Virus record (IMG/VR): IMGVR_UViG_3300006802_000277 | Span: 1 to 34,092 of that record | DNA: 34,092 bases | Reading direction: 5' to 3' (one strand) | Source of the DNA: a virus | In this document: one piece after another, positions 1,512-34,092 of the stretch | Numbering within the stretch: the first letter of the stretch is position 1 | Layout: every line of letters begins with the position of its first letter | The notes under the pieces: model-generated | What the model saw: only the letters and a program-made list of their open reading frames with translations | What the model was told of the DNA's origin: nothing | The model's database searches: none | Program-made: the position numbers and the translations under genes

Positions 1512-3392
1512 ATGGACGATAGAAAAGCAAGTGACCTAATAGAAGAGCTTAGAAAAGGCAGAGACCAGAGTAAAAGCGTTACAGAAGAATTAACTGATAT
1601 TAACAGTTTTCTAAAGCAACAAACAGCTTATCTTCGTTTAAATACTAGAGCATCTGAAATTTTAGGAATAAGCTTAAAAACTAGTCAGACTAGTATGAAA
1701 AGCTTAACGGCAGGGTTCGGTGCGATAGATAATGAACTTCAACAATTAAAACAAAATTTTAGTGATTTATTTACGACTAACCTTGCTCAAGTCGCTGGTA
1801 ATAAATTTGCTGGTGCAGCAATGAAAGAGCTTGGTGGAGATTTAAAAGCCCTTGTCCCAGTAACAACAGCTAATACTGTTCGATTAGCTTTATTCCAAGC
1901 TGGGTTAGAGAGAAACTCTGAAAGTTTATCCCTGTTTTTAGCTAGATCAGAGATTCTTGGAGAGAGTCTAGAGCAAGTTACTTTTAATCTTAGAGGAGTA
2001 AAAAATAACTTAGGACTAAATGATAAAACCCAAGTTATGCTTATTGACGCAGTTTCTACTGCTGCGGGAACTTATAAAACTTCTAGTGAAAGTGTTTTAA
2101 GAGGCTTACTATCCTTATCCAATGTTTTAGCTGTAACTAATACCCGAGTTAACCCAGAGACAGCTAGACTTATTACGTTGGTCCAAGGTATGGTTGATAG
2201 GGTAGCCCCTGACGCTCTACAAACAGCACTAGAGCCCCTACTTACCAGAGGCCCTGAATCTATTAGACTTGCAGGAGCCCTTGGGGTAGGGGCTGAACTA
2301 CAAAGACTTCAGGCAGGTGTGGGTAGTCAAGCAGAACAAGTAGAAAACCTTCAAAAGATACTGAGAGCTTTTGTGTCTTTCCGTGACCAGTTTGTTAGTG
2401 GAGATGTTCAATCTAATATTCTTACGTCTGATTTGATAGAGAAAGTAACACTTCTTAATTTAAATCAAATAGAAACTTTAAGAATAGCTGAACAATCTAT
2501 ACAACAAAACAAAAATAATATTGAAAAAATTGCTTCTATAAACGACGCTCAACTCAGTGTTGAGAAGCTAATGAAACATTTGTTCGATGGGTTCTCGGTA
2601 TTAAAAAATGGTATATTCCTATATCTAGAAAGATTAGTTGATAAGTGGGGACCAGAAGCCTTGAGTAAACTAGGTTTAATTGCTGCTGCTGTAGGAGTAG
2701 TTGTCGCGGGTTTAGCGGCTGTATCCTTGGCTTTAGCTCCGATAGCTCTCCTAATTGGTCCTTTACTTACAATAGCAAGTGGTATACTAGCTATAGCACT
2801 TTCTGTGGCAACTTTTGCCGTTCAAAATCCAGGTCTAATTGCTCTAGGCACTCTGGTGAGTTCGTTCACTCCAGCAGGAGGGATTACATCCTTGATGAAC
2901 CAATTGGGAAGCATGATCGTAGGCTTTATAACGACTTATATGAGTATTAGTAAAACACAGCTTGATAAATTTGTAGCTGACGCTACGACATATATTACGT
3001 CTATTCTCCCTCCTGGTTTGGTAAGTGGGGATTGGTTTAAAATGATAAAAGATACAGTAACTGATTTAGAAAAAAGTGTAGTTGATGCCCTCGCACCAAT
3101 AGCTCAAGATACAGATGTTTTAGCGAATGATGTTAGACAACAAAAATTCTCTGATTTAGAGAATGAAGCCAGGAGATACTCTATGTCTCATGCTAAGATT
3201 CTATCTGAGATAATCAAAAAGTCTAACAGAGACTTAAGTGTTGACATGACCGCTGAAAATGCTAGGTATGAGATGGTTAAACAGAATCTTTATTTACGAA
3301 CTATAGCTGAACACTTAGAAAGACAATCTGATCTAATGATGGATACCAAGTTCAGATGGAATAACGCTAAATCAGGAGATGGATCAAAATGA
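1512..3392 (+). CDS. Tail tape measure protein (gp29-like)
   Basis: This 626-residue protein has tape-measure architecture. It has a long helical, coiled-coil-prone N terminus (Leu, Gln, Glu, Lys rich, residues 1-90) and a mostly helical centre. A strongly hydrophobic block of small residues covers about 387-440 (runs such as LIAAAVGVVVAGLAAV), with another hydrophobic segment near 463-482 and a charged helical C terminus. Tape measures fill the tail tube, fix its length and can enter the host membrane during DNA ejection. Its size is close to T4 gp29 (590 residues). It starts one base after the preceding stop with a GCAGGGA ribosome-binding site, and its TGA overlaps the next ATG (ATGA). Downstream genes follow the standard contractile-tail order, which supports the call. 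Confidence 0.75.
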   Translation: MDDRKASDLIEELRKGRDQSKSVTEELTDINSFLKQQTAYLRLNTRASEILGISLKTSQTSMKSLTAGFGAIDNELQQLKQNFSDLFTTNLAQVAGNKFAGAAMKELGGDLKALVPVTTANTVRLALFQAGLERNSESLSLFLARSEILGESLEQVTFNLRGVKNNLGLNDKTQVMLIDAVSTAAGTYKTSSESVLRGLLSLSNVLAVTNTRVNPETARLITLVQGMVDRVAPDALQTALEPLLTRGPESIRLAGALGVGAELQRLQAGVGSQAEQVENLQKILRAFVSFRDQFVSGDVQSNILTSDLIEKVTLLNLNQIETLRIAEQSIQQNKNNIEKIASINDAQLSVEKLMKHLFDGFSVLKNGIFLYLERLVDKWGPEALSKLGLIAAAVGVVVAGLAAVSLALAPIALLIGPLLTIASGILAIALSVATFAVQNPGLIALGTLVSSFTPAGGITSLMNQLGSMIVGFITTYMSISKTQLDKFVADATTYITSILPPGLVSGDWFKMIKDTVTDLEKSVVDALAPIAQDTDVLANDVRQQKFSDLENEARRYSMSHAKILSEIIKKSNRDLSVDMTAENARYEMVKQNLYLRTIAEHLERQSDLMMDTKFRWNNAKSGDGSK

Positions 3393-31057: not shown

Positions 31058-31408
31058 ATGTCAAACTCAAATGATGTTAAGATGTTTCTAGAAGGCTGCG
31101 ATTGGGCAAGCCTCGGCTTAGAGCCAAAGAATGTTATTTCAGAATCAGTTGAAGATCACGATGGTGATTATGAAGAACTCCACGAAAGTGATGAGATAGA
31201 AGCTGGTTTCTACGATGTCGATGGTGAGCTTTTCTTTGTCAACGAAGATCAAGAAATCTTTGATGTCTTCTCCGATGAAGATGATCAAGTTTTTATTTTC
31301 CATGAAAGCTACGGTCTTCACCAAGTCTTTGAAGACGCTGATTCACTAATGTTCGAAGAAGTTGATACTGATGGCTTTGAAGTTCTTGAAGAAGACATTG
31401 AGGACTGA
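31058..31408 (+). CDS. Highly acidic small protein, probable prohead core component
   Basis: This 116-residue protein has 40 Asp/Glu, only two Lys and no Arg. The second half repeats short aromatic-acidic strands (ELFFVNEDQEIFDVFSDEDD, then QVFIFHES and DSLMFEEVD). I do not recognise the family by sequence. In T4-type head operons a small acidic core protein (gp67) lies upstream of the protease gene. This gene has a similar place and charge, although its beta-like pattern differs from gp67. Late-promoter-like boxes and GAGG precede it. It could be a scaffold-core protein or a charge partner for the basic proteins encoded just downstream. A DNA-mimic role is a further, unsupported, possibility. 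Confidence 0.75.
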   Translation: MSNSNDVKMFLEGCDWASLGLEPKNVISESVEDHDGDYEELHESDEIEAGFYDVDGELFFVNEDQEIFDVFSDEDDQVFIFHESYGLHQVFEDADSLMFEEVDTDGFEVLEEDIED

Positions 31409-31410
31409 GT

Positions 31411-31812
31411 ATGAATCATTCATACCCAAGCATAAGTGTCTCTCAATTTTTTGAGGACATGGTAAACGAGGGTAATGTTAGGCCGGAGGCAGATCCTATA
31501 ACTGTCTCCGACCCTTCTATGCCTGATCTCAGAGAAATTCCTGATGTTGATCTCGGCAATTTATTTGGTGCTCCGAAAGCTCCTAAGAAAGTTGTTGCCG
31601 AGGCTAAGGAACAATCAAAAGACATGAAGCAAGAAATGCTTGAACTCATGATGGAGTTCAAGCAAGTTGTCCAGAAGGCTAATAAACTCTTTGCTGAAAT
31701 GACAGCAGGGACTACGACAGTAGGAATGTTAGGAGTGAATTTAGCTGGTCCTACCAATAAAGCAAAATCTCCTAAAAAGGCCGTGAAAACACTTAGAAGG
31801 AAACAGCTATGA
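31411..31812 (+). CDS. Small helical protein, possible prohead core protein (gp68-like position)
   Basis: This 133-residue protein starts two bases after the acidic protein stop. The N-terminal half is acidic and Pro-rich (DPITVSDPSMPDLREIPDVD, then LGNLFGAPKAP). A clear amphipathic helix (about 65-100, EQSKDMKQEMLELMMEFKQV) suggests a coiled coil. The C terminus is basic (KAKSPKKAVKTLRRKQL). V18-N19-E20 then Gly near the N terminus could be a prohead protease site. Location upstream of gp21 matches gp67/gp68 in T4, but I see no direct sequence match. It overlaps the next gene by ATGA. Confidence 0.7.
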   Translation: MNHSYPSISVSQFFEDMVNEGNVRPEADPITVSDPSMPDLREIPDVDLGNLFGAPKAPKKVVAEAKEQSKDMKQEMLELMMEFKQVVQKANKLFAEMTAGTTTVGMLGVNLAGPTNKAKSPKKAVKTLRRKQL

Positions 31813-32306
31813 GATACCTTACACCAGTTCGTTCTGATTCCATTGTCCCTCTAACCATGGACAGCCTGATGGAGACTGCTAAAGAAAAGATGGAAAAACC
31901 TCGCCTCGGGATGATTCACAATCCACCAACACCCAAGCTCCCCAGATCAATCTCAAAACCCTCTCCTAATGATAAGAAGGTAAAGCCGGGCGTTAAACCT
32001 TTTGTAAAAGAAGATAATGATCTGTTGGAAGGCAAGTATAAGGATCAAAGAGAAGCAGGCAATGTAAAGGGTCCAATCGCTAAAGCAGCTATGAACAAGC
32101 TTCGCGGCAGCAAGGGCAAGATGGTAAGAGGTAAGCTAAAGCCAGCTACTTCTAAGGCTGCTCGTGAAGCTTATAAGAGAGCAGCAAGAGCAGCAGCAGG
32201 CACCTCAAAACCAGCAAAGGCACCTGAAGATAGACTTCCAGAGCCAAGAGGCGGTGATGCCGGTTCAACTGAGGCTAACATCAGAAAAGCAGGAGATCGT
32301 CAATGA
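31809..32306 (+). CDS. Very basic small protein, probable internal head or core protein
   Basis: This 165-residue protein has about 38 Lys/Arg and long low-complexity stretches (KAAMNKLRGSKGKMVRGKLK, then KAAREAYKRAARAAAG). It should be largely disordered or helical and bind nucleic acid or the acidic core protein. L20-M21-E22 then Thr fits the [L/I]-x-E rule for gp21-type cleavage. I do not recognise a family. It overlaps both neighbours by ATGA, so the head genes are probably translated together. Codon use is richer in G+C than in the tail block. Confidence 0.7.
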   Translation: MRYLTPVRSDSIVPLTMDSLMETAKEKMEKPRLGMIHNPPTPKLPRSISKPSPNDKKVKPGVKPFVKEDNDLLEGKYKDQREAGNVKGPIAKAAMNKLRGSKGKMVRGKLKPATSKAAREAYKRAARAAAGTSKPAKAPEDRLPEPRGGDAGSTEANIRKAGDRQ

Positions 32307-32806
32307 AAACGTTAACAAGAGTTAATCTAGAAGAAGCAAAACGTTGCTGGAAAGGTTACAAGCCAACTCCAGGCAAGAGACCTTATTCAAAAGGTTCCTG
32401 CATGAAGGAAGCCACTGTTCTTAAGACAGAAAAGCTTACGGGTAAACGAAGGAAGCTAGACAAGAACAAGAATGGCAAGCTTGATTCTCAAGACTTTAAG
32501 ATCCTTCGTGGAGAAGAAACCGTTGCCGAAGGTAGCCCTGCTTGGCAACGGAGTGAAGGAAAGAATCCTTCAGGCGGTTTAAACGCTAGGGGCGTCGCAT
32601 CATACCGTGCAGCAAATCCAGGATCAAAGCTGAAGACTGCTGTGACAACCAAACCATCTAAATTGAAGAGAGGCTCAAAGGCAGCCAGTCGTCGTAAGTC
32701 TTTCTGCGCTCGCATGGGCGGAATGAAGGAGAAGCTTACAGGGGCTGAGACTAAGAGTGATCCTGATTCAAGAATTAATAAATCACTACGGAAGTGGAAC
32801 TGCTGA
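32303..32806 (+). CDS. Basic protein with CWKGY motif, EF-hand loop and DUF6321-like C terminus
   Basis: This 167-residue protein has three recognisable parts. Residues 14-34 (RCWKGYKPTPGKRPYSKGSC) match a short Cys-containing motif common in phage structural proteins. Residues 53-64 form a canonical EF-hand calcium loop, with D53, N55, N57, G58, L60, D61 and D64 in the right places. Residues about 78-167 (SPAWQRSEGKNPSGGLNARG, then RRKSFCARMGGM and RKWNC at the end) match the DUF6321 pattern of phage proteins as I recall it. The protein is very basic. L9-E10-E11 then Ala is a candidate prohead protease site. Location points to a prohead or internal head protein that may bind DNA and calcium; its molecular role is unknown. 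Confidence 0.75.
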   Translation: MKTLTRVNLEEAKRCWKGYKPTPGKRPYSKGSCMKEATVLKTEKLTGKRRKLDKNKNGKLDSQDFKILRGEETVAEGSPAWQRSEGKNPSGGLNARGVASYRAANPGSKLKTAVTTKPSKLKRGSKAASRRKSFCARMGGMKEKLTGAETKSDPDSRINKSLRKWNC

Positions 32807-33210
32807 TGAGCTTTTTATCTATAATTAACGAAGCTAAAGGTTCTGAGGTCTATGGTTCTAAAGAAGGCACCAAAGGTAAGAATCGTTCCGGCGTAACTAA
32901 ATCCCAAAAGTCGAGAGTAAAGGTTTACCCCTCAATAATGAGTGCTCTCAGATCAGGACAAATAGGGGATATATTTTCAACTGATGGTTCTGAACGACTT
33001 TACGTAATTAGTAAACAAAAGTGGGGCACGGACAAAGATCAGGTAGTAGCAGGTAGAATCGCAAAAGGATTTACTCCTGGTTCCGCTACACCATCTGCGT
33101 CATGGTCCTCAATTAAGAAGCATTCAGTAAGAACTAAATTACGCTACAGAAAAGGTTCTGTAAGTCGAGATCTTAAACGTAAATACGGATCAAGAATTAA
33201 AGCAAAGTGA
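32806..33210 (+). CDS. Basic small protein with predicted N-terminal propeptide
   Basis: The ATG at 32806 shares a base with the previous stop (TGATG) and is preferred to an in-frame GTG at 32794. The product has 134 residues. It starts MSFLSIINEAKG: I7-N8-E9 then Ala fits the gp21-type cleavage rule and would release a nine-residue propeptide. The rest is basic, with a compact centre (VYPSIMSALRSGQIGDIFST, RLYVISKQKWG) that looks like a small beta domain, and an Arg/Lys-rich tail (KLRYRKGSVSRDLKRKYGS). I do not recognise it. Position just before the protease gene suggests a head protein processed during maturation. Confidence 0.75.
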   Translation: MSFLSIINEAKGSEVYGSKEGTKGKNRSGVTKSQKSRVKVYPSIMSALRSGQIGDIFSTDGSERLYVISKQKWGTDKDQVVAGRIAKGFTPGSATPSASWSSIKKHSVRTKLRYRKGSVSRDLKRKYGSRIKAK

Positions 33211-33217
33211 GGATAAT

Positions 33218-34092
33218 ATGCTGCTAAAAGAAGTAAGAGTTTTAACCGACTTACAGGTTATTTCAGAATCTCGTGACACGGGCGTAATGTGTATTCGTGG
33301 CACATTCCAACGCGCAGAAGAGGAAAACCACAATAAGCGAGTATATCCTAAAGCAGTATTAGAAGGTTGCGTCAAATCACTTCAAGAAAAGCTTTCTGGT
33401 AGAGAGCTTGTTGGTGAACTAGATCACCCCGCTGATGGAGTTGTAAAACTTCAGAATGCTTCTCACTTAATCACCAAGCTAGAATGGAAGGGTAATGATC
33501 TAATTGGTGAAGCAGAAATCCTCCCAACTCCAGCAGGTCAGATCGCAAAGAGTCTTATCAATGCAGGTGTGAAGATTGGTATTTCAAGTCGCGGTATGGG
33601 AACTCTCAGTGAATCATCAGAAGGCTCAAAGATTGTCAATGATGATTACAAGATGATTACCTTCGACCTTGTTGCTGACCCTTCAACCAAGGGCGCATAT
33701 CCATCACTGGCAGAATCAAGGCAACACGCTCTTGATTTTGTTGAGAATGTTATCAAGCCTGCAATTTCAGAGAAAGCTTTTGTTGCTCGTCTGAAGAAGC
33801 AACTCGATCTGATGGAGGCTAATAGATCAAAGATTGTCGCTGATATAGACACAGCCATCGACAATGTAGGAAATAACGGTGACCGAGAAGAAAGACTAGA
33901 AAAACTTCGACACAGAATAACCGGTGGTGGTGATGAGCCACAAAAGAAGTTAGGTCCTAAAATTCCTCAATCTAAGCATACAAAAGATGCTCGAAGGAAG
34001 AGAGCATCTAGAAGATCAGCAGCTAAGAAGAAGCTACAAGAAGCCATCAACGAAATGTGCGGCCCAAAAAAGCATGGCAGAAGGAGACTAAA
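33218..34092 (+). CDS. 21: Prohead core protease gp21, 3' truncated by window
   Basis: The ATG at 33218 follows a good GAGGAT ribosome-binding site; 291 residues are visible without a stop. It belongs to the T4 gp21 / S80 (herpesvirus-assemblin-like) family. ELVGELDHP (catalytic H70), GISSRG (Ser 123 or 124) and TFDLVADPS are present in the usual order. The enzyme sits in the prohead core, cleaves core and capsid proteins after [I/L]-x-E, and then itself. Internal candidate self-cleavage sites are I15-S16-E17 and an INE near residue 278. T4 gp21 has 212 residues; the extra here is a charged, basic C-terminal extension (ARRKRASRRSAAKKK). AAGGAGA close to the window end may be the ribosome-binding site of the next gene, expected to be the scaffold. 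Confidence 0.92.
   Translation, partial: MLLKEVRVLTDLQVISESRDTGVMCIRGTFQRAEEENHNKRVYPKAVLEGCVKSLQEKLSGRELVGELDHPADGVVKLQNASHLITKLEWKGNDLIGEAEILPTPAGQIAKSLINAGVKIGISSRGMGTLSESSEGSKIVNDDYKMITFDLVADPSTKGAYPSLAESRQHALDFVENVIKPAISEKAFVARLKKQLDLMEANRSKIVADIDTAIDNVGNNGDREERLEKLRHRITGGGDEPQKKLGPKIPQSKHTKDARRKRASRRSAAKKKLQEAINEMCGPKKHGRRRL

Follow-up and report, generated by a model that had tools for sequence, protein, structure and literature searches.

Does a phage gene that carries an EF-hand-type loop between two phage-specific motifs encode a calcium-responsive head protein, and what would the loop do there? The gene lies at 32303-32806 of a 34,092-base virus record, which was analysed over its whole length (the window) and carries baseplate-wedge genes (a gp53 family member and two PHROG baseplate-wedge matches). 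A first-pass annotation had read the product as a calcium-binding head protein that could sense the change from cell to sea water or help condense DNA.

A basic modular protein encoded near a gp21-type protease

Translation gave a 167-aa protein with a predicted pI of 10.4 and a net charge of +28. The features of the gene and its surroundings are listed below; the four orthologs are those of the window and of three same-locus relatives (L208, L209 and L210), whose protease is 93-97% identical.

31058..31408, +, strongly acidic protein of 116 aa (net -38) that precedes the head genes, present in 4/4 orthologs
31411..31812, +, small gene; 4/4 orthologs have DM[VLI]NE-G close to the N-terminus
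31809..32306, +, basic neighbour gene that differs between orthologs; no family match below E 0.1
32303..32806, +, 167-aa modular protein gene, CWKGY + EF/dockerin-like loop + DUF6321 (translation, Pfam)
32303..32335, +, leader, residues 1-11, ending LEE before A12 (predicted cut; likeness to the T4 internal-protein capsid-targeting sequence)
32336..32410, +, CWKGY module, residues 12-36, ending MKE before A37 (predicted cut)
32411..32530, +, EF/dockerin-like loop-helix module, residues 37-76, ending VAE before G77 (predicted cut)
32459..32494, +, 12-residue loop, residues 53-64 (translation, pattern search)
32531..32803, +, DUF6321 module, residues 77-167, net +17 (Pfam, alignment)
32794..33210, +, basic neighbour gene; its second Met (32806) as start would give MSFLSIINE-A
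33218..34090, +, gp21-type prohead protease whose frame is still open where the window ends (Peptidase_S77, E 4.8e-28)

The protease is the second gene downstream of the modular gene. The IxE of the neighbour at 32794..33210 is retained in 4/4 orthologs, as is an [MI]KE-A border after the CWKGY module. The acidic protein at 31058..31408 is likened to T4 gene 67 by analogy, not by homology.

The full EF-hand loop claimed for this gene is indeed present at residues 53-64 of the translation. It reads D53-K-N55-K-N57-G58-K-L60-D61-S-Q-D64, a canonical 12-residue loop with ligands at positions 1, 3, 5, 9 and 12 and glycine at position 6, and it lies, as described, between CWKGY (15-19) and DUF6321 (86-165). 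A generic EF loop arose by chance in 23/200,000 shuffles of the protein, and in a six-frame translation of the window the loop was the sole match of the search pattern. The profile search proposed as a check on the domains upheld DUF6321 (PF19846, residues 86-165, E 7.5e-18, 65.4 bits against a curated cut-off of 28.5); EF-hand_1 stayed under its curated cut-off (residues 50-66, E 0.0044, 16.9 bits against 25.4), as did Dockerin_1 on the EF module (14.2 bits against 22.9), and the CWKGY motif drew no Pfam match in the same scan. The protein holds no second hand, and its single loop makes up neither a pair of hands nor a two-repeat dockerin. Within DUF6321, C135 and the C-terminal C167 are invariant across 21 aligned rows.

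Conservation and nature of the loop

The loop was expected to be conserved in close relatives, and this was true of half of them. All ligands are kept in two of the four orthologs (the window and L209), and the whole EF cassette is missing from L208 and L210, yet CWKGY and DUF6321 remain there. Because two of the four same-locus orthologs are without it, the EF loop is, on comparison of these genes, an optional cassette that is gained and lost. It also follows that, if the protein generally senses sea water or condenses DNA, it cannot depend on the loop to do so, and the proposal of such a role was not sustained in that form; a calcium-sensor reading is possible but would concern an accessory piece. 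A motif search of the stretches scanned at 26 other protease loci found no DUF6321, CWxGY or EF module.

Across the wider family, ligand conservation was followed in two scans of viral contigs with ligand positions freed in turn, which are not independent because each pattern held the remaining ligands fixed. With positions 1, 9 and 12 free, D1 and D12 were each found in 69/69 distinct peptides among 80 loci, with S, D, T, N or G at position 9 (among the matches listed). With positions 3, 5 and 6 free, position 3 was N in 64 and D in two of 66 distinct peptides, position 5 was N or D in 66/66, and position 6 was G in 55, N in 10 and D in one (again among the matches listed). Ligands D1, D12, N/D3 and N/D5 are strongly conserved in this wider set, among the matches listed. 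The ten distinct loops with N for G at position 6 are EF loops of L268-L286 (among the matches listed).

A profile was built from 35 hand-picked EF segments out of 91. Nearly all of its best 60 of 126 matches among PDB sequences were EF-hand/calcium-binding or dockerin proteins, with a best E of 1.8e-4 and one leucine-rich-repeat protein at 0.007, and Dockerin_1 matched 29/35 profile members at E up to 0.1. The low-confidence model of the 167-aa protein (mean pLDDT 63.5; residues 40-50 below 50) places helices at 30-46 and 62-68 around the loop, and a tandem-loop model has exit helices only (mean pLDDT 52.4); tandem EF copies were seen in L161, L259 and L273. Foldseek of the 167-aa model against the PDB returned zero matches at E up to 10. 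The phage module shares with EF-hands and type I dockerins a loop of 12 residues, D-x-N-x-[DN]-G-x-[IL]-x-x-x-D, with a helix behind it; unlike them it is single, is modelled without an adjoining entering helix, scores under the Pfam cut-offs and is typically flanked by LKGxQxK and DFKxLR. It is closer to one dockerin-like loop-helix than to a pair of EF-hands, and metal binding is likely.

The sub-threshold Pfam score, the lack of a partner hand in the 167-aa protein and the low-confidence models, which show no helix next to the N-terminal side of the loop, would also fit a fortuitous DxNxNG turn that binds no metal. Such a turn is hard to reconcile with freed positions that keep D1 and D12 in every peptide, and D/N3 and D/N5 likewise (among the matches listed), or with PDB matches that are nearly all calcium-binding proteins (best 60 of 126), and we consider it very improbable.

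A putative capsid-targeting leader and predicted cuts at module borders

The reading that we favour, with somewhat better than even confidence, is that the gene encodes a head-packaged chain of basic mini-modules, one of them metal-binding, that is cut by a gp21-type protease. On this reading a distant T4-like phage would make an internal head protein that consists of a few mini-modules in a chain, and a T4-like N-terminal capsid-targeting leader would bring it into the prohead core. The gp21-type protease two genes downstream would remove the leader and cut at LEE-A, MKE-A and VAE-G, giving three basic pieces: a CWKGY peptide, an EF/dockerin-like metal-binding peptide and the DUF6321 domain. 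The pieces would remain on the packaged DNA, neutralising its charge, and may also pass into the host. The metal loop, an optional addition, would most likely fold on calcium (or magnesium) and stabilise its own piece. We infer the head location of the 167-aa protein, its cleavage, metal binding and DNA contact from motifs, gene context and relatives.

T4 internal proteins enter the prohead via a ten-residue leader, in which residues 4 and 7 matter for targeting and 8 and 10 for processing, and T4 gp21 cleaves after L/I-x-E (PMC9026906). T4 IPII and IPIII start MKTYQEFIAE-A and IPI starts MKTFKEF (NC_000866). The 167-aa protein starts MKTLTRVNLEE-A, followed by CWKGY; it has hydrophobic residues at 4 and 7 and a hydrophobic-x-E in the leader, with the leader Glu at 10/11 as compared with 10 in T4. 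After removal of proteins sharing their first 12 residues, such starts were found in 27/145 module proteins vs 64/1900 other ORFs (p 2e-11). Directly behind a leader stand CWxGY in L004, L108 and L273 (MVTFKEFITE-K before CWTGY in L273), DUF6321 in L269, L280, L278 and L283 (L278 has MKSFKQFLEE-S), and the EF module in L246 (MKSYTQFLE-A; ORF open at the contig end).

The likeness to T4 IPI-III thus extends to a short leader with hydrophobics at 4/7, a hydrophobic-x-E before A/G, small basic proteins (net +2, +4 and +9 in T4) and a prohead protease in the genome. In contrast to IPI-III, the window protein has several modules with predicted cuts and a metal loop, and its gene sits near the protease, whereas the T4 ip genes adjoin denV, e and 57B, not gene 21. 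In BLASTP, the DUF6321 part (32602-32803) gave a weak match to T4 IPIII (L302 3835-4416, minus strand; 30% over 77 aa, E 0.034 among three sequences, 20 bits), which may be chance, and the 167-aa protein had no match to IPI or IPII. Elsewhere, a cytidylyltransferase-like protein (L085 6005-7255) starts MKNLFQFLAE-A, and the next protein (L085 7266-9164) carries another acidic loop motif, DYDGDGKIESGKDEY; a similar one stands beside the EF module in L163.

Cut-type motifs, defined as [LIVFM]xE within 14 residues before a module, were counted for 144 modules in the 135 of 194 module proteins kept after near-duplicate removal, leaving out modules <=8 residues from the start. The motif preceded 79/144 modules, compared with 36.7 +/- 4.5 in composition-kept shuffles (max 49, n=1000), and EF, DUF6321 and CWxGY each exceeded the shuffles separately (0/1000 apiece). 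A hydrophobic residue stood at -2 of the Glu in 43% of cases vs 19-27% at other distances; this spacing signal came mainly from CWxGY (61%) and KWF (58%), with EF modules at 36% for -2 and 32% for -3, and DUF6321 modules at 35% for -2 and 29% for -1. The 167-aa protein has four cut-type motifs, namely LEE-A, MKE-A and VAE-G at borders and one within DUF6321, and L209 has three, all at borders; MKE-A has Met, not L/I, before x-E. With border windows set post hoc, motifs at all three borders, each followed by A/G, arose in 0/200,000 shuffles, and in 145/200,000 without the A/G condition. In stand-alone EF genes the nearest Met codon lies 1-2 positions before the module's Leu in 28/48, and internal EF modules with a motif (51/97) have one residue between the motif Glu and the module Leu in 29/51; starts of stand-alone EF modules and predicted cuts in fused ones coincide within about one residue. 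The motif also precedes 10/48 stand-alone EF modules.

That 65/144 modules are without the motif, and that EF and DUF6321 modules show only a weak spacing signal, would be expected of a virion protein that stays uncut, its linked modules forming a multivalent basic DNA- or core-binding chain and its E-rich borders being mere acidic linkers. The peptides of two relatives in cyanophage S-CREM2 virions, ORF137 and ORF160 (see below), which are not located in the published table (PMC10665884, Table 3), are also compatible with an uncut chain. The excess of motifs over shuffles for three module types and the fall of the border near the gene start of stand-alone modules argue for cleavage, and we regard the uncut chain as unlikely.

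Modules recur in fused and stand-alone forms

The loop had been described as lying between two phage-specific motifs, and the co-occurrence check did not show these to be its fixed partners: a fixed trio of loop, CWKGY and DUF6321 was rejected, since all three modules recur independently and same-locus orthologs lose the loop. Among the matches listed, a strict EF motif inside a DUF6321 ORF was found only in the window's own copy (L081) of 80 loci. DUF6321 itself was found by tblastn in 532/50,697 phage records, mostly of cyanophages, with pelagiphages next. In environmental contigs it is often a gene of its own, of 92-93 aa, and elsewhere it forms a part, as a rule the last, of proteins as long as 994 aa (both among the matches listed). 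These long proteins are strings of short cysteine- and lysine-rich modules: KWF (SLHKWFKGSKS), CYHK (DACYHKVKSRYSVWPSAYASG), CWxGY and DUF6321. The cyanophage DUF6321 proteins of cluster T4-GC 119, of which the S-P4 member is annotated as a structural protein, share the C-terminal domain with the 167-aa protein. Those of S-P4, P-RSM4, ACG-2014f and S-SM1 have 365-856 aa and other modules, without the EF module; the window's, unlike those four, has 167 aa and lies near the protease gene.

The EF module occurs both as stand-alone basic micro-proteins and within long proteins (among the matches listed), in two sub-types. Stand-alone modules have D5 in 44/48 and S9 in 29/48, and internal ones N5 in 57/75 and D9 in 57/75; the window loop is of the internal type. 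T7-like cyanophage P-SCSP2 has five consecutive small genes between its scaffold and major capsid genes, in the order YPSAYAN-type, EF, a 50-aa gene, RRWF-type and DUF6321 (Pfam 85.5 bits), where YPSAYAN and RRWF kinship was judged by eye. HTVC023P has consecutive YPSAYAN, KKWF and EF genes, and in P-SCSP1c a DUF6321 gene directly follows the capsid gene. L086 encodes a 35-aa EF-loop micro-protein (3031-3138), and EF matches of this type have zero annotated features beneath them in 17/17 P-SCSP1 records (among the matches listed). We rejected the name "RecA-like" given to L084 2992-3243, a DUF6321 gene in Pelagibacter phage Greip; this 83-aa gene matches only DUF6321 in Pfam, and the recombination label is probably a mislabel. 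Our search of open-access journal papers found no literature naming DUF6321, and the matching passages of the P-SCSP1u paper (PMC10575957) have nothing on these module proteins.

In whole records, gp21 was found in 3/3 T4-like cyanophages with fused proteins (S-CREM2, S-SM1 and S-P4) and in 0/3 phages with single-module genes (P-SCSP2, P-SCSP1c and HTVC023P), which comprise T7-like cyanophages and a pelagiphage. Among 50 larger, mostly partial environmental records, gp21 was found in 7/24 fused vs 1/25 stand-alone cases (p 0.023), an association that is weak because this second sorting was picked after the first had failed. The first, cruder sorting of the same 50 records, made by cut motifs, included untranslated sequence, found zero modules in five records and gave no gp21 association (p 0.72). 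The second was made by ORF length, left L048 unsorted and scored L258, from a 1.4-kb stretch, as stand-alone. Capsid genes of the gp23 type occur in 7/50 of these records, and therefore most of these fragments stop short of the head genes.

Stand-alone module genes in phages without gp21, together with the gain and loss of the EF cassette, could also mean that the modules are a kit of injected effectors, which travel into the host along with the DNA and do their work inside it, packaging being the route only. We know of no host target for such a kit, and no enzyme family or solved relative of the 167-aa protein was found in Pfam, the PDB or Foldseek, which speaks against it. T4 offers a parallel, as its injected IPI inhibits a nuclease of the host, and conservation among internal proteins is poor (PMC9958956, PMC9026906). 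On balance we hold an effector kit to be doubtful and prefer packaged, protease-released modules that stay with the DNA.

Relatives in S-CREM2 virions

Mass spectrometry of S-CREM2 detected 52 virion proteins of 219 genes, among them ORF137 with four unique peptides (4.1% coverage) and ORF160 with seven (PMC10665884, Table 3). ORF137 is a DUF6321 protein (40.8 bits) without a T4-type leader, and ORF160 carries KWF-, CWPGY- and CYHK-type modules, judged by eye. Table 3 gives no positions for the peptides of either protein, and the authors caution that the regulatory proteins may have co-purified (PMC10665884). The description of the 167-aa product as a head protein gains partial support from these DUF6321 and CWxGY relatives in virions and from the gp21-type protease two genes away; we infer that the S-CREM2 relatives lie in the head rather than the tail. 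No EF module of this kind was found in S-CREM2, where the only loops are one in the portal and one in a 104-residue open stretch, and no EF-module protein with virion data was found. The portal gene (L307 24599-26422) has its EF-like loop, DLNGDGQVSQDE, near the C-terminus.

The virion data also bear on a role in assembly alone, in which the protein would join the prohead core and then, like the core proteins of T4, be broken down and largely expelled, with the loop aiding core assembly. The position of the gene just upstream of the protease and the exit of most T4 core pieces from the head (PMC9026906) would agree with this. The detection of relatives in mature virions (PMC10665884) and a strong positive charge that fits DNA-filled heads make it quite unlikely, and we retain the packaged chain as the better account.

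A strict T4-derived leader fits six annotated S-CREM2 proteins, of which gp6, 13, 14 (whose gene starts with GTG), 136 and 154 are in the virion list and the sixth, the 55-aa gp175, is missing from it. A looser pattern separated virion proteins weakly from the rest (5/52 vs 4/167, p 0.037). Such leaders may predict virion cargo of cyanophages, as far as these sequence matches go. T4-type leaders (MKx[FL]xxFLxE) are seen on virion-detected proteins at L305 3837-5081, 10310-10546 and 10579-12846 and at L307 34608-35468, which are a SAM hydrolase, gp13, an APH/ChoK-like kinase and a cytidylyltransferase; the Cas9-like gp12 of S-CREM2 has FASFMAE-A at about residue 25.

Discussion

A family of modular, head-targeted proteins, probably cut by a protease, is a stronger result than the loop that drew attention to the gene. 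More tentatively, and with well under even confidence, we suggest that CWxGY, EF/dockerin-like, DUF6321, KWF and YPSAYA modules could form a marine kit, which phages with gp21 would cut from leader polyproteins and others would encode as micro-genes (in some cases next to the capsid gene), one module being calcium-gated between cell and sea water. In the giant phages phiKZ and SPN3US a gp21-like protease cuts head-packaged proteins after a short x-x-E (PMC9026906), and we liken the window protein to these by mechanism alone. According to a proposal in the same review, T4-like phages can package a variety of proteins by means of the leader (PMC9026906). In the open-access literature we found no marine capsid-targeting proteins or head polyproteins and, for EF-hand head proteins, nothing relevant except an orphan phage protein in which an EF-hand is predicted (PMC5795418).

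If this account is true, the novelty would lie in the kit of modules, in its occurrence in both fused and split form, and in the metal loop. DUF6321 and its companion modules would gain a function class, as head-packaged, protease-released peptides, and a metal-binding module would be placed inside the phage head. The T4 capsid-targeting code would then extend to ocean phages, and virion cargo would become readable from sequence.
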